A DNA stretch of 64,000 bases from assembly GCF_029626265.1 (NCBI RefSeq), contig NZ_JARUBN010000001.1, positions 7,133,001 through 7,197,000 on the forward strand, given 5' to 3'. The first letter of the stretch is position 1. Each line of letters opens with the position of its first letter. This document shows positions 5,963 through 62,039 of the stretch, piece after piece. Source of the DNA: Micromonospora sp. WMMD1102 (GTDB taxonomy: Bacteria; Actinomycetota; Actinomycetes; Mycobacteriales; Micromonosporaceae). The notes under the pieces are model-generated. The model was given only the letters and a program-made list of their open reading frames with translations. It had not been told where the DNA came from and searched no databases. The position numbers and the translations under genes were made by a program.

Positions 5963-8105
<2,143 letters not shown>

Positions 8106-22095: not shown

Positions 22096-23007
22096 CTAGT
22101 CGGCGGTGCGCCGGGTGCGGACCGGGACGACGAGCGGGCCGTGTTCACCCTCGATGACGCGTACCCGGGCCCGGTAGTGCGTACCGAGCAGGTCGTCGGT
22201 GAGCACCGAGCGGGGCGGGCCGTCGGCGACCACCGCGCCGGCGGCGAGCAACACCATCCGGTCGGCGTACTCGCCGGCGACCGAGAGGTCGTGCATGGTG
22301 GCCAGCACGGTCAGGCCGTGGTCGGCGCGGAGCTGGTCGACGAGTTCCAGCACCTCCTGCTGGTGCCCGATGTCCAGCGCACTTGTCGGCTCGTCGAGCA
22401 GCAGCAGCGGGGCACCCTGGGCCAGCGCCCGGGCCAGGAAGACCCGCTGCCGCTCGCCGCCGGAGAGCGTCGCCAGCGGCCGGGCCGCGAAGCCGGTCAG
22501 GTCCAGCCGGTCGAGTACGTCGTGCGCCACCGCCAGGTCGGCGGCGGACTCCCGACCCAGCGGCGGCACGTACGGGGTGCGGCCGAGCAGCACGTAGTCG
22601 AGTACCGCCATCCCGGCCGGCACGACCGGGGACTGCGGCACCGTGGCCACCGTCCGGGCCCGGTCCCGGCGGCGGAGCCGGGCGAGCGGCGTACCGAAGA
22701 GGGAGATCGAGCCGGTGCTGGCCGGCAGCAGCCCGCCGACCGCGCGGAGCAGCGTCGACTTGCCGGCGCCGTTCGGGCCGATCACGGTGACCCACTCCCC
22801 GGCGGCGACCGAGAGACCGACCCCGGTCAGGATGGCCGCCCCGCCGAGTGTCACCCCGAGGTCGGTCACCTCGACGGCGACCCCGGTCGGCGCGGTCGCA
22901 CCGCTCGCACCCGTCGGGGCGGTCGCACCCGTAGGCGCGGTCGCACCCGTAGGCGCGGTCGAACTCGTCGCGCCCGTCGCACCACTCGCGCCGGTCGGGG
23001 CGGTCAT
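22096..23007 (-). CDS. btuD: cobalamin ABC transporter ATP-binding protein (BtuD/FecE family)
   Basis: 303 aa. Walker A GPNGAGKSTLL, Q-loop VPQ, signature LSGGERQRVFLARAL, Walker B LLLLDEPTSALD, H-loop MHDLSVA: a complete importer ATPase. The first ~42 residues are an unusual Ala/Thr/Gly/Pro repeat (TGATAPTGATAPTGA) encoded by an 18-bp minisatellite. ATG at 23007 overlaps the permease stop. With btuC and btuF, and under a cobalamin riboswitch, the substrate is most likely a corrinoid; sequence alone cannot separate this family from siderophore importers. Confidence 0.88.
   Translation of the reverse strand: MTAPTGASGATGATSSTAPTGATAPTGATAPTGASGATAPTGVAVEVTDLGVTLGGAAILTGVGLSVAAGEWVTVIGPNGAGKSTLLRAVGGLLPASTGSISLFGTPLARLRRRDRARTVATVPQSPVVPAGMAVLDYVLLGRTPYVPPLGRESAADLAVAHDVLDRLDLTGFAARPLATLSGGERQRVFLARALAQGAPLLLLDEPTSALDIGHQQEVLELVDQLRADHGLTVLATMHDLSVAGEYADRMVLLAAGAVVADGPPRSVLTDDLLGTHYRARVRVIEGEHGPLVVPVRTRRTAD
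22882..23004 (-). repeat. in-frame 18-bp minisatellite at 5' end of btuD
   Basis: Approximate 18-bp units encode APTGAT/APTGAS several times over residues 2-42, before the conserved domain begins at VAVEVTDLG. Likely dispensable and length-variable. Confidence 0.6.
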
Positions 23008-24119
23008 TCCGCCACCCGCCGGGTGGTGCGCAGCACGATCGCGAAGAACGGGCCGCCGAGCAGGGCGGTGACCACGCCGATCGGGATCTCGGCCGGCGCG
23101 GCGACGGTACGCGCGGTCAGGTCGGTCAGGGTGAGGAAGGCGCCGCCGAAAAGCACCGAGAGCGGCAGGATCGCCCGGTAGCTCGCCCCGGCCAGCATCC
23201 GCACCACGTGCGGGACGATCACGCCGACGAAACCGATCAGCCCGGAGACCGAGACGGCGGCGGCCGTGCCGAGCGAGGCCGCGGCGACCAGCAGCAGCCG
23301 GGAACGCTGCGGATGCAGCCCGAGACTGCTCGCCTCGTCGTCGCCGAGCGCGAGTACGTCGAGTTCACGCCGGTGCACCAGCACCACGGCGGTGGTGAAC
23401 ACCGCGTACGGCAGCACCACCAGCACGTCGTGCCAGCCGGCGGTGGCCAGCCGGCCGAGCATCCACGAGTAGACCTCTTGGATGCTCTCGGCGTTGCGTT
23501 GCAGCAGGTAGGTCTGTCCGGCGGCGAGGAAGGCGGAGACCGCCACCCCGGCCAGGATCAGCGTCGCCGGTGAGCGGTCCCGGCCGCCGGCCGCGCCGAG
23601 CAGGTAGGTCAGCAGCACCGCGCCGAGCGCCCCGACGAAGGCGGCCAGCGGCACGGTGACCGGCAGCCCGACCGTGACGTCCGCGCCGCTGACCCCGCGC
23701 AGCACGATCACGGCGGTCACCGCGAGACCGGCTCCGGCGGCGACGCCGAGCAGGTGCGGATCGGCCAGCGGGTTGCGGAAGACGCCCTGGTAGCAGCCGC
23801 CGGCCAGGGCCAGCATCCCACCGACGAGCAGGCCGAGCACCACCCGGGGCAGCCGCAGCTCGGTGACGATGGCGATCTCCCGCTCGTTCAGGCCGCTGTG
23901 CAGGTGCACCCCGGGGACCAGGTTGAGCAGCTCGATCGCGACGCTGCCCGGCGGCAGGCTGACCGGCCCGAACGCGATGCCGGCCAGGGCGGCGACCACG
24001 ACGGCGGCGAACCCGGCCGCCAGCCACCGCCGGCGCAGCCCGGCGGGCCGCCCCGGTTGGCCGCGCCCGGCGGGTGCGGCCGGCGTGCCGGGGCGGGCCA
24101 GGGCGGTGGCTCGGCTCAA
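23004..24119 (-). CDS. btuC: cobalamin ABC transporter permease (BtuC/FecCD family)
   Basis: 371-aa FecCD permease with about 9-10 membrane helices. Conserved stretches are RLPRVVLGLLVGGMLALAGGCYQGVFRNPLADPHLLGVAAGAGL and, near the C-terminus, VSGLIGFVGVIVPHVVRMLAG with the coupling region, then GGAFLTLTDLTARTVAAPAEIPIGVVTALLGGPFF. TTG start at 24119 overlaps the btuF stop (TTGA). Works as a dimer with BtuD and receives substrate from BtuF. Confidence 0.9.
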   Translation of the reverse strand: MSRATALARPGTPAAPAGRGQPGRPAGLRRRWLAAGFAAVVVAALAGIAFGPVSLPPGSVAIELLNLVPGVHLHSGLNEREIAIVTELRLPRVVLGLLVGGMLALAGGCYQGVFRNPLADPHLLGVAAGAGLAVTAVIVLRGVSGADVTVGLPVTVPLAAFVGALGAVLLTYLLGAAGGRDRSPATLILAGVAVSAFLAAGQTYLLQRNAESIQEVYSWMLGRLATAGWHDVLVVLPYAVFTTAVVLVHRRELDVLALGDDEASSLGLHPQRSRLLLVAAASLGTAAAVSVSGLIGFVGVIVPHVVRMLAGASYRAILPLSVLFGGAFLTLTDLTARTVAAPAEIPIGVVTALLGGPFFAIVLRTTRRVAE

Positions 24120-25048
24120 GCGGGTACCTTGGCGACCGCGTCCACGATCGCCCGGAGCAGGTCGACGACCCGGGGACCCCAGCGGGACGCGATGTCGTCA
24201 TCGAGCGCGACGACCTGGTTGTTCTTCACCGCGGTCAGCCCGGACCAGCCCTTGCGGGCCGCGACCGTCTGCGGGGACTGCTGGCAGCACTTGGTGTCGG
24301 CCAGGAAGACCAGGTCCGGGTCGGCCTTGATGATCGCTTCCTCGGCGAGCTGCGGATAGCCGCCCTTCGCGCCGTTCGCGTCGGCCGGGTCGGCGATGTT
24401 CTCCAGCCCGACCATCCCGAAGAGCGAACCGACGAACGTCTTGCTGGTCGCCGAGTAGTACTCCGGGCCGAGTTCGTAGAAGTAGGTCAGCTTCTCCGAC
24501 CGCTGCGGCAGGTCCCCGACCAGCTTCCCGATGTCGTCCTTCAGCCGGCCGACCAGGTCGGCCGCCTCGGTCGGGTGCCCGGTGAGGGTGCCGAGGTCGG
24601 TGATCTGCCGGTACGTGTCGTCGAGCGTCGTCGCCGCCGGTGCCAGGTAGTGCGGGATCTTCAACTGGCCGAGCTGGTCCACGATCTTGTTCAGGTCGTT
24701 GGTCAGGACCACCAGGTCGGGGTTCTTCGCCGCGATCGCCTCGGCGTTCGGGGTGAAGGCGGACAGCTCGCTCTTCGGCGCCTCGGCCGGATGGTTCGAG
24801 TTGTCGTCGACGGCGGTGACCTGGCTGCCGGCGCCGATCGCGAAGAGCATCTCGGTGGCGGTCGGCCCGAGCACGACGATCTTCTCGGGGCGCTTGTCGA
24901 GGGTGAGCGGGCCGACCGTCACCGGATAGCTGGCACCGCTCGCGCCGGGGCTCGGGGCCGGGCCGGGGTCGTCGGCGACGCAGCCGGCCAGGGCCAGGGC
25001 CGCGCTGGCCAGCAGCGCCGCCAGCAGCCGGGGGGTACGTCGGGTCAT
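24116..25048 (-). CDS. btuF: cobalamin-binding lipoprotein (BtuF-like)
   Basis: 310-aa substrate-binding protein with a lipoprotein signal (LLASAALALAGC, lipobox LAGC). Class III periplasmic-binding fold: EKIVVLGPTATEMLFAIGAGSQVTAVDD, KNPDLVVLTNDL and QLAEEAIIKADPDLVFLADT. First gene of btuFCD, 14 nt after an AGGAGG site. The leader upstream is a cobalamin riboswitch, which makes corrinoid binding the best assignment; expression should fall when adenosyl- or methylcobalamin is abundant. Confidence 0.88.
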   Translation of the reverse strand: MTRRTPRLLAALLASAALALAGCVADDPGPAPSPGASGASYPVTVGPLTLDKRPEKIVVLGPTATEMLFAIGAGSQVTAVDDNSNHPAEAPKSELSAFTPNAEAIAAKNPDLVVLTNDLNKIVDQLGQLKIPHYLAPAATTLDDTYRQITDLGTLTGHPTEAADLVGRLKDDIGKLVGDLPQRSEKLTYFYELGPEYYSATSKTFVGSLFGMVGLENIADPADANGAKGGYPQLAEEAIIKADPDLVFLADTKCCQQSPQTVAARKGWSGLTAVKNNQVVALDDDIASRWGPRVVDLLRAIVDAVAKVPA

Positions 25049-35445: not shown

Positions 35446-35817
35446 CTACACCTTGTCCGTCGGCTTCCCGGTGTCCGTCTGCTTGCCGCTGTCCGTCGGC
35501 TTTCCGGTGTCCGTCGGCTTTCCGGTGTCCGTCGACTTGCCGGTGTCCGTCGACTTGCCCGGCTTGGTCGGCTTGTCGTCGCCGGCCAGCGCGGCGCGCA
35601 GCCGCTCCTTCTCCGCCCTGCGCTTCTCGGCCGACCCGGCCAACTGCCGGGCCATCTCGTCCCGCCAGCCGCGCAGCAGGAAGAAGGCCAGCGCGGCGGA
35701 GAACGCCACCGCCAGCATGAGCTTGAGGAAGAGGTTCATCTCGACCGGCCAGAGCGCGAGGGCGACCGCCAGGAACAGCCCGATCCGGCCCAGCGTGTAC
35801 TTCACCGCGGGACTCAT
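35446..35817 (-). CDS. DUF4229-type small membrane protein
   Basis: 123 aa. Two membrane helices (YTLGRIGLFLAVALALW and MLAVAFSAALAFFLLRG), then RDEMARQLAGSAEKRRAEKERLRAALAGD, the charged tail typical of actinobacterial DUF4229 proteins. The C-terminus is an 18-bp tandem repeat encoding TDTGKP/TDTGKS six times (35455-35560). In actinobacteria such genes often lie near the menaquinone genes, as here; function unknown. Confidence 0.7.
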   Translation of the reverse strand: MSPAVKYTLGRIGLFLAVALALWPVEMNLFLKLMLAVAFSAALAFFLLRGWRDEMARQLAGSAEKRRAEKERLRAALAGDDKPTKPGKSTDTGKSTDTGKPTDTGKPTDSGKQTDTGKPTDKV

Positions 35818-36313: not shown

Positions 36314-37504
36314 TCAGGCCCAGACCTGCTGCGGCTCGGAACGGCGCTCCGCCAGACTCGGCGGCGCGTCGTACTCGCGCAGCACCGCGTACCGGCTGTC
36401 CCGCTCGACCGGGCGGAAGTCGGCCTCCCAGACCAGCTGGAGCAGCTCGTCCCGGGAGAGCGGGTCGGCCGTGCCGGACCCGCCGGTGGCCCGCTGGTCC
36501 GCCGGGGCGGCGGTCAGGTCGTCCACCCCGAAGTTGAGTGCGAGCTGCGCGACGGACGGCCCCTGCGCCGCCCAGCAGCAGCGCAGGTGCGGCACGTTGT
36601 CGAAGAGCAGCCGGGACACCGCGAAGGTCTTCAGCGACTCCGCCGGGGACGCCGACCAGGCCGAGGAGGCTGCCTCGCCGGCTGATGAGGCCGCGTCCCC
36701 TGCGGAGGAGGCCGCTTCCCCGGCCGGCCGCCCCGCTCCGGACCCGTGCGCCGGCCCCGCCGGCTCGGGGAAGCGCAGCGGCAGGAAGCTGGTGAAGCCG
36801 CCGGTCTCGTCCTGCAACTCGCGCAGCCGCAGTACGTGGTCGACCCGGTGCCGGGGCTCCTCGCCGCGACCGAAGCGCATCGTCGCCGGGATGCCGAGCC
36901 CGCGGGCCTGGGCGAGCCGGTGGATCCGGGACCAGTCCGCCCACGAGCAGTCGTCGACGCCGAGCCGGCGGCGGGCCTCCGGGTCGAAGATCTCCGCCCC
37001 GCCACCGGTCAGCGACACCAGTCCGGCCGCGACGAGTTCGTCGAGCAGTTCTCCGGCCGGCAGCCCGGTGGTCTGCTCCAGCCGGCACAGTTCGGTGACT
37101 GCGAACCCGGTCAGCCGTACGCCGGGCAGCGCCGCCGCCAGCGCGCGCAGCAGCTCCGGGTAGTGCCGCCAGGGCAGCGCGGGATGCACCGGGGCGACCA
37201 GCTCCAACTCGGTGACGCCGTCGACGGCCAGGCCGGTGGCGCGACGCACGGCCTCGTCCCGTTCCCGCTCCCCGGTGGCGTCCTGATCCGGTCGGCTGGG
37301 CGCATCGGGGTCGGTCGGTCGCAGTTGCCGGTTCCCGACGAACAGCACCCGCTCGGCACCCGCCGACCCGGTACGCCGGTGGTGCGCCAGCCGGCCGAGC
37401 CAGACCAGGTCGTCGCTGGCGTACAGCGCCTCGCCGTCGGCACGGTCGAGCCGCACCCCGGCATAGACCTTCTCTTCCAGCTCACGCTTGCGTCCGGCGT
37501 CCAT
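36314..37504 (-). CDS. MqnE-like protein lacking the radical-SAM cluster (possible pseudoenzyme)
   Basis: 396 aa, clearly homologous over its length to aminofutalosine synthase MqnE: MDAGRKRELEEKV at the start, SLTGGGAEIF (165-173), EEPRHRVDHVLRLRELQDETGGF (215-237) and LKTFAVSRLLFDNVPH. In true MqnE the segment after NRHL contains CxxxCxxC for the [4Fe-4S] cluster; here residues 57-75 read GNRQLRPTDPDAPSRPDQD with no cysteine, and the following NGLHP-type motif is APVHP. The other reading frames contain no such motif, so a simple frameshift is not the cause. A degenerate acidic/Ser repeat (AGEAASS, residues 261-290) replaces a conserved loop. Catalysis as a radical enzyme looks impossible. 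Confidence 0.85.
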   Translation of the reverse strand: MDAGRKRELEEKVYAGVRLDRADGEALYASDDLVWLGRLAHHRRTGSAGAERVLFVGNRQLRPTDPDAPSRPDQDATGERERDEAVRRATGLAVDGVTELELVAPVHPALPWRHYPELLRALAAALPGVRLTGFAVTELCRLEQTTGLPAGELLDELVAAGLVSLTGGGAEIFDPEARRRLGVDDCSWADWSRIHRLAQARGLGIPATMRFGRGEEPRHRVDHVLRLRELQDETGGFTSFLPLRFPEPAGPAHGSGAGRPAGEAASSAGDAASSAGEAASSAWSASPAESLKTFAVSRLLFDNVPHLRCCWAAQGPSVAQLALNFGVDDLTAAPADQRATGGSGTADPLSRDELLQLVWEADFRPVERDSRYAVLREYDAPPSLAERRSEPQQVWA

Positions 37505-46038: not shown

Positions 46039-46509
46039 TCAGGACGACCGGCCCGGTTCCGACGGGCGCAGCGGCTGGGGACGGTTCTCCCATTTCGTCG
46101 ACAGTGCGACGCCTGTCCGGGTCGAGGCGACTCCGGCCGTCCGGTTCAGCCGCAGGATGAGCTGCTCCAACTCGGCAATTGTGCCGACTCGTGCCTTGAG
46201 CAGGAACGATTCCACCCCGGCCATGAAGTAACAGGATTCGATTTCCGGCATGCCCCGGAACGCCTCCAGTACGTCGTCGGTGTCGCCGCCGGAGTCCTGC
46301 ACGATGCCGATCAGCGCCGTCACCCCGAGCCCGACCGCCTCCGGCTCGACGTCCGCCCGATAACCTCGGATGACGCCACCGGACTCCAGCTTGCCCACCC
46401 GCTCGTGCACCGCCGGCGCGGAGAGGCCGACCTGCCGGGCCAGTTCGGCGTAGGAAAGGCGGGCGTTGCCGCGCAGCAGCTCCACGAGGCTCAGGTCGAT
46501 GGCGTCCAC
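46039..46509 (-). CDS. Lrp/AsnC-family transcriptional regulator
   Basis: 156 aa: AsnC HTH (IDLSLVELLRGNARLSYAELARQVGLSAPAVHERVGKLESGGVIRGYRADV) and the RAM effector-binding domain (TALIGIVQDSGG ... ESCYFMAGVESFLLKARVGTIAELEQLILRL). GTG start at 46509. Its position next to cds1 suggests control by cysteine or another amino acid. In Streptomyces an AsnC gene (SCO4493) also lies by mqnE and ubiX. Confidence 0.9.
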   Translation of the reverse strand: MDAIDLSLVELLRGNARLSYAELARQVGLSAPAVHERVGKLESGGVIRGYRADVEPEAVGLGVTALIGIVQDSGGDTDDVLEAFRGMPEIESCYFMAGVESFLLKARVGTIAELEQLILRLNRTAGVASTRTGVALSTKWENRPQPLRPSEPGRSS

Positions 46510-47121: not shown

Positions 47122-47751
47122 TCAGGTCCGGTGGGCCCCGAGCTCGCCGGACCAGCGCCGGAACAGGGAATGCGGCACGTCCAGCGCGTCGAGCACCTTT
47201 CCGGCCACGAAGTCGACGAGTTGCGGAGCGGAGGCGGCGGCCCCGGCACCGTAGAAGCCGGGGCTCGCCGGCAACACCACCGCGCCGGCATCGTGCAGGG
47301 TGATCAGGTGTTCCAGGTGGCTGCGGGTGACCGGAGTCTCCCGGGGCACCACCACCACCGGCCGGCGCTCCTTGAGGTTCACCTCGGCGGCCCGTTGCAG
47401 CAGGTCCTTGGAGAGGCCGATCGCGATGCCGGCGCACGCCGCCGTACTCGCCGGCACCACCACCATCCCGCTGGTCGGGTACGACCCGCTGCTCGGCCCG
47501 GCCGCGAGATCACCTGCCGGCCAGTACGCGAGGTCGGCGCCGGTCAGGTCCCGCCCCAGCCAGGCGGCGAGGTCGTCCTTCCAGTGCGCGTCCCGGAACG
47601 GGCGGCCGGTCTCGTCCAGGATCGTCAGCCGGGCCGCCCGGGACACGACCAGGTCCACCGCCTCACCGGCGTCCAGCAGCCCGCCGAGCACGGCGGCCGG
47701 ATACGGCGTACCCGATGCTCCGGAGACGCCGACCACCCACGGCCTTCTCAT
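47122..47751 (-). CDS. ubiX: flavin prenyltransferase UbiX (MqnM-like)
   Basis: 209 aa. Makes prenylated FMN for a UbiD decarboxylase from FMN and dimethylallyl phosphate. Motifs: VVGVSGASGTPYPAAVL, SSGSYPTSGMVVVPASTAACAGIAIGLSKDLLQRAAEVNLKERRPVVVVPRETP, LHDAGAVVLPASPGFY. In the futalosine pathway the pair UbiX/UbiD acts on the 1,4-dihydroxy-6-naphthoate series; the UbiD partner is at 50318. ATG 47751 is chosen; a GTG two codons upstream is possible. Confidence 0.93.
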   Translation of the reverse strand: MRRPWVVGVSGASGTPYPAAVLGGLLDAGEAVDLVVSRAARLTILDETGRPFRDAHWKDDLAAWLGRDLTGADLAYWPAGDLAAGPSSGSYPTSGMVVVPASTAACAGIAIGLSKDLLQRAAEVNLKERRPVVVVPRETPVTRSHLEHLITLHDAGAVVLPASPGFYGAGAAASAPQLVDFVAGKVLDALDVPHSLFRRWSGELGAHRT

Positions 47752-47947
47752 GCCCACCAGCCTGCCGCAAGCGTCGGAGTCGGCGCCGACCGACCCCGGC
47801 CGCGACCTGCGAGACGGGTTCGCAGGGCTTGCGGATCATCACCTGCTGCGAAATAGGACGTACCCGACGGTGATCACAGGAAGGTCGAAAACTGCAATGC
47901 TGCTCACGTCTGTCTGCCCGAGCGGCACGGATCGGAGGAGGCCGGGC

Positions 47948-49362: not shown

Positions 49363-50265
49363 TCAGGCCGAGAGGTGCAGCCGGACCACCAGGTCGAGCA
49401 GGGCGAAGACGAAGAGGGCGATCCCGACGAAGCCGTTGGCGGTGAAGAAGGCCCGGTTGACCCGGGACAGGTCGGTCGGGGTGACCACCACGTGCTGGTA
49501 GCCGAAGGCGGCGGCGGTCAACGCCAGTCCGACCCACCAGGGCCAGCCCAGCCCGACCAGTTCGCCGTACCAGAGGAAGAGGCCGAAGGTGACAACGTGG
49601 GCCACGGTCGAGGCGTGCAGGGCGAACCGGCGGCCGTAGCGGGCCGGGACGCTGCGTACCCCGATCTGGCGATCCACCTCGCTGTCCTGGCAGGCGTAGA
49701 TCAGGTCGAAGCCGCCGATCCAGAGCCCGACCGCCGCGCCGAGCAGCCAGGCCGGGCCGGAACCGGCGAGCGTGCCGGTGACCGCCAGCCAGGCGCCGAC
49801 CGGGCCGACCGCCTGGGCGATCGCCAGGATCGCGTGCGGCCAGTCGGTGAACCGCTTGCCGTAGGGGTAGACGACCAGCGGGATCGCGGCGAGCGGCGCC
49901 AACGCCAGGCAGAGCGGGTTGAGTGCCGCCGCGGCGCCGAGGAAGACCACCAGCGCGACGACCGCGCCGGTCCAGGCCGTCCGGACGCTCACCGCCCCGG
50001 TCACCAGTTCCCGCCCGGCGGTACGCGGATTGCGCGCGTCGATGCGCCGGTCGATGATCCGGTTCGCCGCCATGGCGAACGTCCGCGCCCCGACCATCGC
50101 GATGGTGATCAGCAGCAGGTCGAGCCAGCGCACCTGCCCGCCGTGCCGCTGCATCGCCGTCAGCGCCGACAGATAGGCGAACGGCAGCGCGAAGACCGAG
50201 TGTTCGATCGCGACCAGCCGGAGGAACGACTTGACCCGCCCCGGCGACTCCGCCACCGCCGTCAT
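49363..50265 (-). CDS. mqnP: UbiA-family prenyltransferase (MqnP-like)
   Basis: 300-aa membrane protein with about eight helices. First aspartate-rich motif NRIIDRRIDARNPRT and second YACQDSEVDRQIG, the divalent metal sites that bind the prenyl diphosphate. Most similar in layout to the prenyltransferase encoded with ubiX and ubiD in the actinobacterial futalosine cluster (SCO4491 type), where it attaches the isoprenoid chain. The ATG at 50265 is 53 bp after the mqnL stop, same strand. Confidence 0.88.
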   Translation of the reverse strand: MTAVAESPGRVKSFLRLVAIEHSVFALPFAYLSALTAMQRHGGQVRWLDLLLITIAMVGARTFAMAANRIIDRRIDARNPRTAGRELVTGAVSVRTAWTGAVVALVVFLGAAAALNPLCLALAPLAAIPLVVYPYGKRFTDWPHAILAIAQAVGPVGAWLAVTGTLAGSGPAWLLGAAVGLWIGGFDLIYACQDSEVDRQIGVRSVPARYGRRFALHASTVAHVVTFGLFLWYGELVGLGWPWWVGLALTAAAFGYQHVVVTPTDLSRVNRAFFTANGFVGIALFVFALLDLVVRLHLSA

Positions 50266-50317: not shown

Positions 50318-51781
50318 TCACGAGATCCCGTACTCCTTCCAGCGCTTGTCCACCAGGGACCGGATCTCCGGCGACATGGTCATCTCCTCCGGCCAGCCCC
50401 GGGTGTAGCCCTCGGACGGCAGCTTGCGGGTGGCGTCCACTCCGGCCTTGCCGCCCCAGAACTGCTGGTACGACGAGTGGTCCAGGTGGTCCACCGGCCC
50501 CTCGGTGAGCAGCAGGTCCCGGGCGTAGTCGACGTTGCCGAAGGCCCGCCAGGCCACCTCGGCGTAGTCGTGCACGTCGCAGTCGGAGTCCACGATCACG
50601 ATCAGCTTGGTCAGCGACATCAGGTGGGCGCCCCAGATCGCGTTCATCACCTTCTGGGCGTGCTTCGGATAGCGCTTCCGGATCGAGATGATCGCGCAGT
50701 TGTGGAAGACCCCGGCGGCCGGCAGGTCGTAGTCGACGATGTCCGGGATCAGCAGCTTGAGCAGCGGCTGGAAGATCCGCTCGGTGGCCTTGCCGAGCCC
50801 GTGGTCCTCCTGCGGCGGCTTGGAGGTGATGATCGAGTGGTAGACCGGCTCCCGCTGGGTGGTCATCGCCTCGACGTGCAGCACCGGGAAGGGCTCGACC
50901 GGAGTGTAGAAACCGGTGTGGTCGCCGAACGGGCCCTCCGGCAGCCGCTCGCCGGGCTCGATGTAGCCCTCCAGGACGATCTGGGCGTGCGCCGGCACCT
51001 GGAGCGGCACGGTCAGGCAGTCGACCATCTCGACCCGCTCGCCACGCAGGAAGCCGGCGAAGAGATATTCGTCGATGTCGCCGGGGAGCGGGGCCGAGGC
51101 GGCGTAGCTGACCACCGGGTCGCAGCCGATCGCGATCGCCACCGGCAGCCGCTGGCCGAGGCGCTCGGCGACGGCGTGGTGCGCGGTGGAGTCCTTGTGG
51201 ATCTGCCAGTGCATGCCGAGGGTGTTGGCCGAGTGCTGCTGCAACCGGTAGAGCCCGAGGTTGCGCTTGCCGGTCTCCGGGTGCTTGGTGTGGGTCAGCC
51301 CGTAGTTGTGGAAGATCCCGCCGTCGCCGGGCCAGACCTGGAGGCCGGGCAGCCGGTTCAGGTCGACGTCGGCACCCCGGTAGACCACCTGCTGGCAGGG
51401 GGCGGTCCGGACCTTCTTCGGGGGTACGGACTTGAGCTGCATCACCTTGCCGAGGCCCTCGCGGATGCCGGACCAGCCGACCGGCAGCTCCGGCTTGACC
51501 AGTGCGCCGATCCGCTCGCCGATCTCGTCCAGCCGGTCGACGCCGAGCGCCGTCGCCATCCGCCGCTCGGTGCCGAAGAGGTTGATCGCAACCGGCATCT
51601 CGCCCCGGGTCGGGCGCTCGAAGAGCAGGGCCGGCCCGTCCGCCCGGACCGTACGGGTGACCACCTCGCTGATCTCCAGCGTCGGGTCGACCGGCACCGA
51701 AACCCGGCGCAACTCGCCGGCGCCCTCCAGCGCGGTGAGGAACTCCCGGAGGTCGGTGTACGGGAAGCCACGAGCCGCCAT
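50318..51781 (-). CDS. mqnL: UbiD-family decarboxylase (MqnL-like)
   Basis: 487 aa. UbiD family markers: FPYTDLREFLTALEGAGELRRVSVPVDP, VGWSGIREG, NRLPGLQVWPGDGG, HWQIHKDSTAHH, GEMPVAIN, EGPFGDHTGFYTPVEPFPVLHVEAMTTQREPVYHSIITSKPPQEDHGLGK and the later SDCDVHDYAEVAWRAFGNVDYARD. It uses prenylated FMN from UbiX. In the menaquinone futalosine pathway MqnL decarboxylates the dihydroxynaphthoate intermediate; the sequence does not by itself distinguish MqnL from other UbiDs, context does. Confidence 0.9.
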   Translation of the reverse strand: MAARGFPYTDLREFLTALEGAGELRRVSVPVDPTLEISEVVTRTVRADGPALLFERPTRGEMPVAINLFGTERRMATALGVDRLDEIGERIGALVKPELPVGWSGIREGLGKVMQLKSVPPKKVRTAPCQQVVYRGADVDLNRLPGLQVWPGDGGIFHNYGLTHTKHPETGKRNLGLYRLQQHSANTLGMHWQIHKDSTAHHAVAERLGQRLPVAIAIGCDPVVSYAASAPLPGDIDEYLFAGFLRGERVEMVDCLTVPLQVPAHAQIVLEGYIEPGERLPEGPFGDHTGFYTPVEPFPVLHVEAMTTQREPVYHSIITSKPPQEDHGLGKATERIFQPLLKLLIPDIVDYDLPAAGVFHNCAIISIRKRYPKHAQKVMNAIWGAHLMSLTKLIVIVDSDCDVHDYAEVAWRAFGNVDYARDLLLTEGPVDHLDHSSYQQFWGGKAGVDATRKLPSEGYTRGWPEEMTMSPEIRSLVDKRWKEYGIS

Positions 51782-51906
51782 GGTCGCTAGTCTGTCGCAC
51801 CGCCGATCGGACCGGCACGGCCGGGTCCCCCGCCGTGACCCGGCTCCCGCCGATCCGTTCCGGCGTCGTCGCCGCGCCGACGACCCGCAGCCCGCCGACG
51901 GGTGCG

Positions 51907-52056
51907 TCAGAGCAGGCCGATGCCGGCGGCACTCCACCAGCCCCGCCCGCGACCGGCGGCCAGGGTGTTCCGGGTGACCACCGCGAAGTCCGGGCCGGGC
52001 ACCACGATCAGCACCACCGCGAAGACCAGGAAGCTGCCGTACGTCGCCCAGGACAT
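51907..52056 (-). pseudogene. LysE-family transporter remnant (N-terminal 49 aa)
   Basis: MSWATYGSFLVFAVVLIVVPGPDFAVVTRNTLAAGRGRGWWSA matches the start of LysE/RhtB exporters (the VPGPDFAVV motif of TM1), but a TGA after AAGIGLL ends it at 49 residues where about 210 are expected. No continuation of the family is found in either direction of the downstream 120 bp. A truncated gene, probably lost function. Confidence 0.7.
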
Positions 52057-58793: not shown

Positions 58794-59480
58794 TCAGTTC
58801 GGCCCGCCCGACGACTGCTCGTCGGCCACCCGGCCGACTATCGGCTCCAACCGCTCCCGGGTGACCCCGGCCCGGATCACCACCGCGATCCGGTTCTCCC
58901 GGTCCAGCACGATGGTCGCCGGGATCGAGTTCGGCGGAATGTCGAAGGCCAGCGCCAGCCGGCTCGGCGGGTCGAAGAGGCTCGGATAGCTCACCTGGTA
59001 GGCCGCCTCGAACGCCTTCGCCTTGTCCCGCCCGTCCTGGATGTTGATGCCGAGGAACCGTACGCCCCGGTCCCTGGTCGCCTGGTGGGTGGCCTCCAGG
59101 TCGTCGGCCTCGGCCCGGCAGGGCGCGCACCAGGAGCCCCAGAAGTTGACCACGACCACCTGACCGCGCTCCCGCGCCAGGTCGTACGCCTCGCCGTCCA
59201 GCAGCTCACCGGCGATCTGCGGGGCCGCCGGGCGATGCTCCGGCGCGCACTCGACGATCCCGTCCGACGTCGCGCAGTCGTCCTTCCAGTCGCTCCCGCT
59301 CCCGCTCCCGCCACCGCCGCCCGAGCAGCCGGCCAGGGCCAGCGTCGCGGCGACGGCGAGCAGCACCCCGAGGCCGGCGAGCCGCCCGGTGCCCCGGGAC
59401 CGGCCCGCGCGTCGACGCGCTTCCTCGGCGGGTACGCCGGGGCCGCGCTCCACCCGACCGGCGCGGGGGCGGCTCATCAT
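58794..59480 (-). CDS. resA: thiol-disulfide oxidoreductase ResA (TlpA family lipoprotein)
   Basis: 228 aa. Lipoprotein signal (GVLLAVAATLALAGC). A thioredoxin-fold domain with WCAPC active site (NFWGSWCAPCRAEADDLEA) and the central insert GINIQDGRDKAKAFEAAYQVSYPSLFDP typical of TlpA/ResA. Keeps cytochrome c CxxCH cysteines reduced. ATG 59480 overlaps the phosphatase stop (ATGA). Between its stop and ccdA there is a 90-bp gap with imperfect GGCCCGGTCA repeats, no separate gene. Confidence 0.93.
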   Translation of the reverse strand: MMSRPRAGRVERGPGVPAEEARRRAGRSRGTGRLAGLGVLLAVAATLALAGCSGGGGGSGSGSDWKDDCATSDGIVECAPEHRPAAPQIAGELLDGEAYDLARERGQVVVVNFWGSWCAPCRAEADDLEATHQATRDRGVRFLGINIQDGRDKAKAFEAAYQVSYPSLFDPPSRLALAFDIPPNSIPATIVLDRENRIAVVIRAGVTRERLEPIVGRVADEQSSGGPN

Positions 59481-60127
59481 GCCCCCTTGGCCGTCCGGGC
59501 CGTCGGCGACATGGCGACCAGGTGCGCGGCCGGCTCGGTGTAGCCGATTCCGACGATCTTGGCGCCGTCGAAGTGGAACGAGGTCAGGCTGGCCAGCCCG
59601 CACTGCCGCCGGCGCGGGTCGTGCCAGAGCCGCTTGCGTTCGACGTACCGGCGCAGGGTCCAGATCGGAAGCTGGTGCGAGACGCAGACCGCCTCCCGCC
59701 CCTCGGCGGCGATCCGGGCCGCGTGCAGCGCCGCGAACATCCGCTCCGCGATAAGCGTGTACGCCTCGCCCCAGGACGGGGTCACCGGATCCCGCAGCAC
59801 CCACCAGTTGCGCGGGTCCCGGAACGAGCCGTCGCCCGGCGAGACCCGCTTCCCCTCGAACCAGTTGGCGCTCTCGATCAGCCGCTCGTCCACCCCGACC
59901 GGCAGCCCGAACTGCGCCGCGATCGGGTCCGCGGTCTGCTGGGCCCGCTCCAGCGGACTCGCCACCACGTGCGTGACGTTCCGCTCCGCGAGCGCCTGGG
60001 CGGCGGCCTTCGCCATCTGCACGCCCAACTCGGAGAGACGGTAGCCGGGCAGCCGGCCGTAGAGGATCTTCTCCGGGTTGTACACCTCGCCGTGCCGGAG
60101 CACGTGCACGACAGTTGTGCTGCCCAT
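59477..60127 (-). CDS. histidine phosphatase family protein (phosphoglycerate mutase-like)
   Basis: 216 aa. RHG nucleophile in HVLRHGEVYNPEKILYGRLPGYRLSELG, second histidine in VCVSHQLPIWTLRRYVE, and Glu in SPLERAQQTADP. Conserved in Streptomyces between hemL and resA (SCO4470 type). Substrate unknown; acid-phosphatase rather than true mutase activity is likely. The ATG at 60127 lies 4 bp after the hemL stop, so the two are coupled. It belongs to the hemL-phosphatase-resA-ccdA-resB-ccsB operon. Confidence 0.9.
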   Translation of the reverse strand: MGSTTVVHVLRHGEVYNPEKILYGRLPGYRLSELGVQMAKAAAQALAERNVTHVVASPLERAQQTADPIAAQFGLPVGVDERLIESANWFEGKRVSPGDGSFRDPRNWWVLRDPVTPSWGEAYTLIAERMFAALHAARIAAEGREAVCVSHQLPIWTLRRYVERKRLWHDPRRRQCGLASLTSFHFDGAKIVGIGYTEPAAHLVAMSPTARTAKGA

Positions 60128-60131
60128 CCCG

Positions 60132-61469
60132 CTACCCCCCGTTACCGGCCGCCGCCGCAGCCTTCGCCGCGACCGGCAACACCGCCGCGACCTGCTCCAG
60201 CGCGGCGTCGTCCAGCGCTGTCGACACGAACCACGACTCGAACGAGCTGGGCGGCAGGTAGACGCCGCCGGCCAGCATCGCGTGGAAGAACGCCCGGAAC
60301 GCCGCGACGTCCTGGGTGCGGGCGGTGTCGTAGTCGTACACGTCCGCGTCGGTGAAGAAGACCGAGAACATGTTCCCGGCGTACGAGAGCCGGTGCGGCA
60401 CACCGGCGGCGGCCAGCGCCTCGCCGGCCAGTCTGCCCACGGAAGCGGCCGTCGCGTCCAGCCGCTGATAGGTCGAGGCGTCGGCCAGCCGCAGCGAGGC
60501 CAGCCCGGCCGCCGTGGCCAGCGGGTTACCGGAGAGCGTGCCCGCCTGGTAGACCGGTCCGGCGGGAGCGAGTCGCCCCATCACCTCGGCCCGCCCGCCG
60601 AACGCGGCGGCCGGCAGCCCGCCGCCCATCACCTTGCCGAAGGTGTAGAGGTCGGCGTCGACCGGATCGAGCCCGGCCCAGCCACCCGCCGAGACCCGGA
60701 ACCCGGTCATCACCTCGTCCATGATCAGCAGTGCGCCGTGCGCGTGCGCGATCCGGGCCAGCGCCTGGTTGAACCCGTCCCGGGGCGCCACCACACCCAT
60801 GTTCCCCGGGGCCGCCTCGGTGATCACCGCCGCGATCTCCGACCCCTGCGCCGCGAAGACCGCCTCCACCGCGCCCACGTCGTTGTACGGCAGCACCACC
60901 GTCTCGCCGGCCGCCGCGTCGGTCACTCCCGGCGAGTCGGGCAGCGCGAGCGTGGCCACCCCGGACCCCGCCGAGGCGAGCAGCGCGTCGACGTGCCCGT
61001 GGTAGCAGCCGGCGAACTTGACGATCCGGCTCCGGCCGGTGAACCCCCGGGCCAGCCGGATCGCCGACATGGTCGCCTCGGTCCCCGAGTTGACCAGCCG
61101 TACCTGCTCGACCGGGGTACGCGCGACGATCTCGGCGGCCAACTCGACCTCGGCCCCGGTCGGGGCGCCGAAGCTGGTCCCGCCGGCAGCCGCGGCCTGC
61201 ACCGCCGCCACCACCTCCGGATGGGCGTGCCCGTGGATCAGGGGCCCCCACGAGCAGACCAGGTCGACGTAGCGTCGCCCGTCCACGTCGACCAGCCACG
61301 CCCCCTCGCCCCGGGCCATGAACCGGGGTGTGCCGCCGACGGCCAGGAACGCGCGCACGGGAGAATTCACCCCGCCCGGCACCAGGGTGCGGGCGCGGTC
61401 GAACAGGGCCTGGGAAGCCGGTGCCGCGGCCGGATAGCGACCGGGGCCGGCGGGGTACGTCTCACTCAC
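60132..61469 (-). CDS. hemL: glutamate-1-semialdehyde 2,1-aminomutase HemL
   Basis: 445 aa. Converts glutamate-1-semialdehyde to 5-aminolevulinate, the committed precursor of haem. Class III aminotransferase fold; PLP lysine in [19 protein letters not shown], substrate-loop [29 protein letters not shown] and [12 protein letters not shown] 61469 is the start. It is the first gene of the haem/cytochrome c operon, consistent with synthesis of haem for the maturation proteins encoded downstream. Confidence 0.97.
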
Positions 61470-61691
61470 GGTGCCGCCATTCTGTCAGCGCTGCCTGGAT
61501 GCCCGGCATCCACCCCTCACCCCGTCGCCCACGTCACGTCCAGCCCCCGCACCCGCCCCGCCAACCGGTCCCGCCCGGCAACCGGCCGGACCCTCCCGCC
61601 CACCACTTCCGGCCCGCGACCACCCCCGGCCCGCCATCGCCACACCGGCGGGGCGGACAGCCATCAACAGGCCGGTTCGGTCAGGTCGCGA

Positions 61692-61697
61692 TAGGCT
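61692..61697 (+). promoter_or_regulatory. -10 element TAGGCT for leaderless STAS gene
   Basis: TAGGCT, then 6 nt, then GTG 61704: the leaderless spacing. A weak AGGCTGATCGG could instead be read as a ribosome site. Confidence 0.4.
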
Positions 61698-61703
61698 GAT
61701 CGG

Positions 61704-62039
61704 GTGAACCGGGCGGACCTGACCATCGCCGTGCAGCGCGGCAGCGACGAGGTGACCCTCCTCCTCGCCGGTGAGATCGACATGCTCACCGCCACCAGGT
61801 TGTCCAGCGCCGTGAACGAGATACTCGCCGACGCGCCGTCCCGAATCGTCCTGGATCTGTCGGATGTCACCTTCTGCGACTCGCAGGGTCTCGGCACGCT
61901 TGTCGTGCTCAGCCGCAAGGCGAGCCACTCGCAGAGCCTGCTGATGCTGACCAACGTCGGCGACTTCCTGCTCCGGGTGCTGGACATCACCGGCCTGCGC
62001 TCCGCCCTGATGATCCGCAACGAACAAGCCACCGGCTGA
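61704..62039 (+). CDS. STAS-domain anti-sigma factor antagonist
   Basis: 111 aa of the SpoIIAA/RsbV family: VTLLLAGEIDMLTATRLSSAVNEILADAPSRIVLDLSDVTFCDSQGLGTLVVLSRKA. The serine in DSQGLG is the phosphorylatable residue in such proteins. Probably regulates an anti-sigma factor not encoded in the window. It converges with a response regulator across a gene-free 305 bp. Confidence 0.88.
   Translation: MNRADLTIAVQRGSDEVTLLLAGEIDMLTATRLSSAVNEILADAPSRIVLDLSDVTFCDSQGLGTLVVLSRKASHSQSLLMLTNVGDFLLRVLDITGLRSALMIRNEQATG

Follow-up and report, generated by a model that had tools for sequence, protein, structure and literature searches.

The 64,000-nucleotide stretch of DNA from Micromonospora sp. WMMD1102 analysed here (the window) carries a gene for an orthologue of MqnE, aminofutalosine synthase, the enzyme known to catalyse this step of the futalosine route to menaquinone (vitamin K2), in which the three cysteines that bind the 4Fe-4S cluster of radical S-adenosylmethionine (SAM) enzymes are missing. 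In 24 genomes of the family the motif, the barrel core or both have been lost, and many of these soil bacteria have deleted the former radical-SAM core in frame. We consider it likely that these proteins are non-catalytic remnants of MqnE that persist as structural components or partners, and that another enzyme makes aminofutalosine.

The open reading frame (ORF) starts with an ATG at 37504, with GGAGG upstream, and its product is homologous to MqnE from end to end and has the MqnE fold in a predicted model, confidence in which (predicted local distance difference test) falls below 50 at residues 252-276, inside an Ala/Ser/Gly-rich stretch (Table 1). It scores 266.4 bits against the MqnE model TIGR03700, covering nearly the whole model and not reaching the cut-off of 434.55, and 195 against the MqnC model TIGR03699, again below the cut-off (428.1); a Pfam scan matched CofH_C, with no match to Radical_SAM (PF04055) at E<=0.1. 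It has four cysteines, at residues 140, 186, 309 and 310, and the cluster site, which reads NRQLRPTDPDAPSRP, has none. An earlier note, made from the letters of the window, had pointed to this absence, to the alteration of the NGLHP segment (VNGLHP has become VAPVHP) and to the failure of a single indel to explain the missing cysteines, and we agree on each: CxxxCxxC is absent from all three frames of the minus strand across the gene and from the six frames over 37240-37370, which rules out one hidden indel. Protein P0002 of Plantactinospora sp. WMMB782, 88% identical to the window protein, shows this cysteine-less stretch as well, evidence against a sequencing error; its PF04055 score of 28.0 is under the gathering score of 29.5. 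Among the matches listed (120 of 2752, window protein included), 111 of the 120 homologues contain CxxxCxxC and nine do not.

The note had proposed either a paralogue or a degenerate copy, the real MqnE then being encoded elsewhere, and the host genome supports neither proposal. This genome is 100% complete, the window lies within its 8.67-Mb main contig, and its nearest named relatives appear from sequence to be Plantactinospora. A search with TIGR03700 at E<=0.001 retrieved MqnC, two FO synthase stretches, the window gene and one weak match of 82 positions, with no second MqnE and no separate core. MqnC, about 41 kb from the window gene, scores 482.7 bits, above its cut-off, with its cysteines intact; two PF02621 genes, interpreted as MqnA and MqnD, are present together with the futalosine hydrolase MqnB, a MenG-type methyltransferase, UbiA, UbiD and UbiX, and no MenD was found above cut-off (best 76 bits vs 244.2). 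Because a genome with MqnA, MqnB, MqnC and MqnD and no MenD contains no other MqnE at E<=0.001, a functional copy elsewhere is not tenable. The window gene also has an NlpC/P60 gene on one side and a DUF4229 gene on the other, like the intact mqnE of genome G058, in which about 6 kb extra lies between mqnE and the DUF4229 gene. The window protein is thus the genome's own MqnE, an orthologue rather than a paralogue. The remnants of G000, G139, G084 and G050, the four checked, likewise occupy the old mqnE place.

The distribution of the loss was examined in 150 genomes, taken as Micromonosporaceae (perhaps in a wide sense) from their named relatives. MqnE scored above the TIGR03700 cut-off in 121 and PF02621 was found in 148; MenD exceeded its cut-off in none of these 150 genomes and in 7 of the 14 controls, and a return to the Men pathway was rejected on this ground. 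Two of the 29 genomes without MqnE above cut-off were set aside, G005 (69% complete, no MqnE match) and G059 (82% complete, MqnC alone). The remaining 27, at least 89% complete and from nine genera, each show two or more PF02621 matches, and every one of them contains both an MqnC with its cysteine motif and an open MqnE frame that has no in-frame stop and retains both ends. Three of them, from the window's genus, retain CxxxCxxC in a divergent MqnE (G032, 408 amino acids; G078, 418; G104, 396). The other 24 are termed defective: 23 lack the motif, and G066 keeps it (CPQRCAFC, in a 306-residue frame) and has no barrel. With 24 genomes affected, the loss is no accident of a single strain. As a separate observation, four genomes with genus code g44 (G044, G081, G106, G115) have a second MqnE-like gene that shares about 51% identity with the query and exceeds the cut-off for MqnE, and each has PF02621 matches to four genes rather than two; they perhaps carry a second futalosine set.

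The defective proteins form a graded series of 396 (the window gene), 355, 333, 204-254 and 165-173 residues, with start codons picked by script and G066 added separately. Compared with intact MqnE, the long cysteine-less forms most often miss the loop 61-80, the mini forms lack 61-200 and the micro forms 61-260, and the ends stay. The order of loss is variable, G066 and P0139 having shed parts of the barrel ahead of the cysteines. Among 187 proteins listed, 132 have CxxxCxxC and 55 do not, and all 31 shorter than 270 residues are without it, although P0155 (130 residues, contig of 2.4 kb) resembles a fragment, and other short entries from metagenomes may also be incomplete. A C-terminal RR..PQ is invariant in both remnant alignments (24 and 18 remnants).

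These states were reached more than once. On a tree of MqnC standing in for the species tree (47 entries: 24 defective, three intermediate and, as genomes with MqnC coordinates to hand, 20 of the 121 intact; G059 excluded), the distribution of the defective state requires nine changes, at least four of which are forced by well-supported branches, and a single clade of defective genomes is rejected (approximately unbiased test, p-AU 1.2e-49). Including G059 raises the forced changes to six.

Ratios of nonsynonymous to synonymous substitution rates (dN/dS), from Nei-Gojobori counts, indicate that the remnants are under selection. Over their whole length, 32 of 32 within-genus pairs of short remnants from four genera gave values below 1 (0.15-0.75), and in the 20 closer pairs, which were bootstrapped, values were 0.15-0.54 with a highest upper 95% bound of 0.90. 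For the window gene against six genus members, on branches that include cysteine-containing relatives, dN/dS was 0.16-0.43 in residues 1-58, 0.50-0.90 in the core (59-203), 0.43-1.14 in 204-284 and 0.28-0.66 in 285-396; in the intact pair G113/G058 it was 0.03-0.08. Purifying selection does act on the remnants, but weakly. The suggestion in the earlier note that the cysteine-less protein is a conserved form under such selection is supported for the shorter remnants rather than for the window protein itself.

A replacement was sought among radical-SAM proteins by a PF04055 survey (81 matches) of three defective genomes (G000, G066, G050) and two intact ones (G058, G097). Within the MqnE/MqnC/CofH group, MqnC is the sole gene with counterparts in G000, G066 and G050; the genes common to all that were inspected resembled, by eye, MoaA, MiaB, HemW and a B12-type protein. 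The survey also brought to light a B12-type radical-SAM protein at host C1:1746965, 75% identical in defective G050 and unmatched in G058, G066 and G097, and, near host C1 8433617, a radical-SAM protein whose CxxxCxxC appears by eye to be split by an intein-like insert near the third cysteine, an insert that a relative in G050 (a 705-residue frame) may also carry. In MqnC itself, the strongest columns between 25 defective genomes (G059 included) and 20 intact ones were a Glu (14 of 25 vs 0 of 20) and an Arg; the Arg had seemed diagnostic in a small sample (6 of 6 vs 1 of 20) and fell to 16 of 25 vs 1 of 20.

The known MqnE reaction requires a 5'-deoxyadenosyl radical. By established radical-SAM chemistry, a protein from which all three cluster cysteines have gone would not cleave SAM to this radical, and would then form no aminofutalosine by the known route; the absent motif thus supports the non-catalytic state that the earlier note had envisaged. 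The family has repeatedly discarded the motif and then the barrel core, the N-terminal helical part and the CofH_C part staying in frame. As these ends are kept under weak purifying selection, a non-catalytic job is most likely, for which docking to another Mqn enzyme, or giving it structural support, may serve as examples. The aminofutalosine step would be carried by MqnC or another enzyme, given that these genomes retain MqnC along with two genes of MqnA/MqnD type, that MenD is missing and that the quinones are menaquinones: the family description (PMC6113628) gives the menaquinone series MK-9 and MK-10 as predominant, and the pathway therefore presumably runs. Since the loss recurred, the underlying redundancy was probably ancient and shared by the whole family, or else easy to acquire. 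A fuller scheme, in which many Micromonosporaceae run the futalosine pathway without MqnE, MqnC or another enzyme makes aminofutalosine, and the former MqnE is a small non-catalytic subunit reached several times independently by barrel excision, is put forward tentatively, as a possibility that we would not yet back.

Several results weigh against a retained partner and a substitute enzyme. No radical-SAM protein in the survey occurs in all three defective genomes and in neither of the two intact ones, a filter that is blind to a replacement carried also by intact genomes, or to one outside the radical-SAM proteins; the recurrent loss suggests a family-wide replacement, the kind that such a filter would miss. 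No MqnC column cleanly separates the defective from the intact genomes, and neither the survey nor the MqnC comparison yielded a candidate for the partner of the remnant or for the replacement. Divergent MqnE below the cut-off was sought at E<=0.001 in the host genome only, and the menaquinone basis is a description of the family, not of the strain. MqnC in the same genomes has dN/dS of 0.02-0.20, clearly lower than the remnants; short segments of some remnant pairs exceed 1 (e.g., 1.63, 1.09, 2.03), as do residues 204-284 of the window gene against G058 (1.14). The higher ratios and these segments mean that selection is weak and that slow decay is possible.

Such decay is the substance of one rival explanation, in which a different enzyme took over from MqnE, leaving functionless relics that are slowly vanishing. 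Graded shrinkage to 165 residues and the relaxed core of the window gene would fit it; we nevertheless judge it unlikely, since none of the 27 frames contains a stop, all 27 keep both ends, whole-length dN/dS is below 1 in every remnant pair and RR..PQ is invariant. It is similarly doubtful, in our estimation, that MqnC performs both radical steps in the family while what is left of MqnE either assists it as a partner or is a vestige, an explanation that overlaps the one we prefer. MqnC alone of its group is present in all three defective genomes surveyed, the other proteins inspected looking house-keeping by eye, and an old family-wide redundancy, which repeated loss fits, need not mark the MqnC of defective against intact genomes; yet the MqnC alignment shows no cleanly diagnostic column, and MqnC evolves slowly. 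Continued synthesis of aminofutalosine by the window protein through a cluster-independent route is very improbable, given that VNGLHP is altered too and that many relatives in the same situation are almost without a barrel. No more credible is a real MqnE missing from the assemblies, or a misassembled locus: the 27 assemblies range from 1 to 480 contigs, but they span the nine genera and several are single-contig, the host assembly is complete, and P0002 agrees independently. A non-catalytic remnant alongside another aminofutalosine-forming enzyme remains the explanation we favour.

The window protein resembles MqnE (aminodeoxyfutalosine synthase; TIGR03700, PDB 6xi9/6xig) in its orthologous place, end-to-end homology and predicted fold, and departs from it in the missing CxxxCxxC, the altered VNGLHP and the sub-cut-off score, its relatives having deleted the core. 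With MqnC (cyclic dehypoxanthinyl futalosine synthase, TIGR03699) it shares an enzyme group and a CofH_C-type C-terminus, whereas MqnC is a separate gene that scores above its own cut-off. Pseudoenzymes in general have lost catalytic residues while the protein is kept by selection; here, unlike those, the catalytic domain has been progressively deleted in frame in several lineages, and the step has no known substitute enzyme. In titles and abstract openings we found no account of MqnE loss in Micromonosporaceae and no radical-SAM pseudoenzyme with cysteine loss of this kind. PMC4746308, in the part seen, predicts other non-orthologous replacements in quinone pathways and none for MqnE.

The neighbours named in the earlier note (DUF4229, AsnC, UbiX, UbiA, UbiD) are upheld. 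The small protein encoded next to mqnE appears by eye to be a membrane protein and has no Pfam or NCBIfam match. No gene proved peculiar to defective mqn neighbourhoods, as window genes matching the blocks of G139, G084 or G050 also match G058, with the exception of genes 58794 to 62039, to which the G058 block does not extend; those of G057, G066 and G047 stop short of the mqnE place. A BtuF/BtuC/BtuD-like (FecCD-type) ATP-binding cassette transporter trio lies at 22096-25048 (minus strand); G139, G084, G050 and intact G058 have relatives of it close to the mqnE place.

Table 1. Coordinates, in the window, of the mqnE orthologue, its parts and other genes
Feature	Coordinates	Strand	Remarks
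mqnE orthologue without radical-SAM cysteines	36314..37504	-	396 amino acids
N-terminal part, residues 1-58	37331..37504	-	retained in every size class of remnant
Former radical-SAM core, residues 59-203	36896..37330	-	mostly deleted in mini and micro forms
Residues 62-72, place of CxxxCxxC in relatives	37289..37321	-	no cysteine here
VAPVHP replacing conserved VNGLHP, residues 103-108	37181..37198	-	
Ala/Ser/Gly-rich variable stretch, residues 247-284	36653..36766	-	
C-terminal part, residues 285-396, CofH_C	36317..36652	-	retained in every size class of remnant
Small hydrophobic protein, 142 amino acids	35832..36260	-	between DUF4229 gene and mqnE, directly downstream of mqnE
DUF4229 protein	35446..35817	-	
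PF02621 match (MqnA/MqnD family, taken as mqnA)	6020..6790	-	within ORF 5963-7522
AsnC-type regulator	46039..46509	-	
UbiX-type flavin prenyltransferase	47122..47757	-	
UbiA prenyltransferase	49363..50265	-	
UbiD decarboxylase	50318..51937	-	

One practical consequence is that database names mislead: P0002, P0082, P0094 and P0125 are labelled 'aminofutalosine synthase MqnE' and have no cluster motif. The graded series of remnants sets the catalytic part of MqnE apart from one that is retained for another reason, and so makes a second role testable. Menaquinone is the respiratory quinone of the family (PMC6113628), and the retention of MqnC and MqnA/MqnD-type genes (with MqnB in the host genome) where no working MqnE is left implies a new aminofutalosine synthase.
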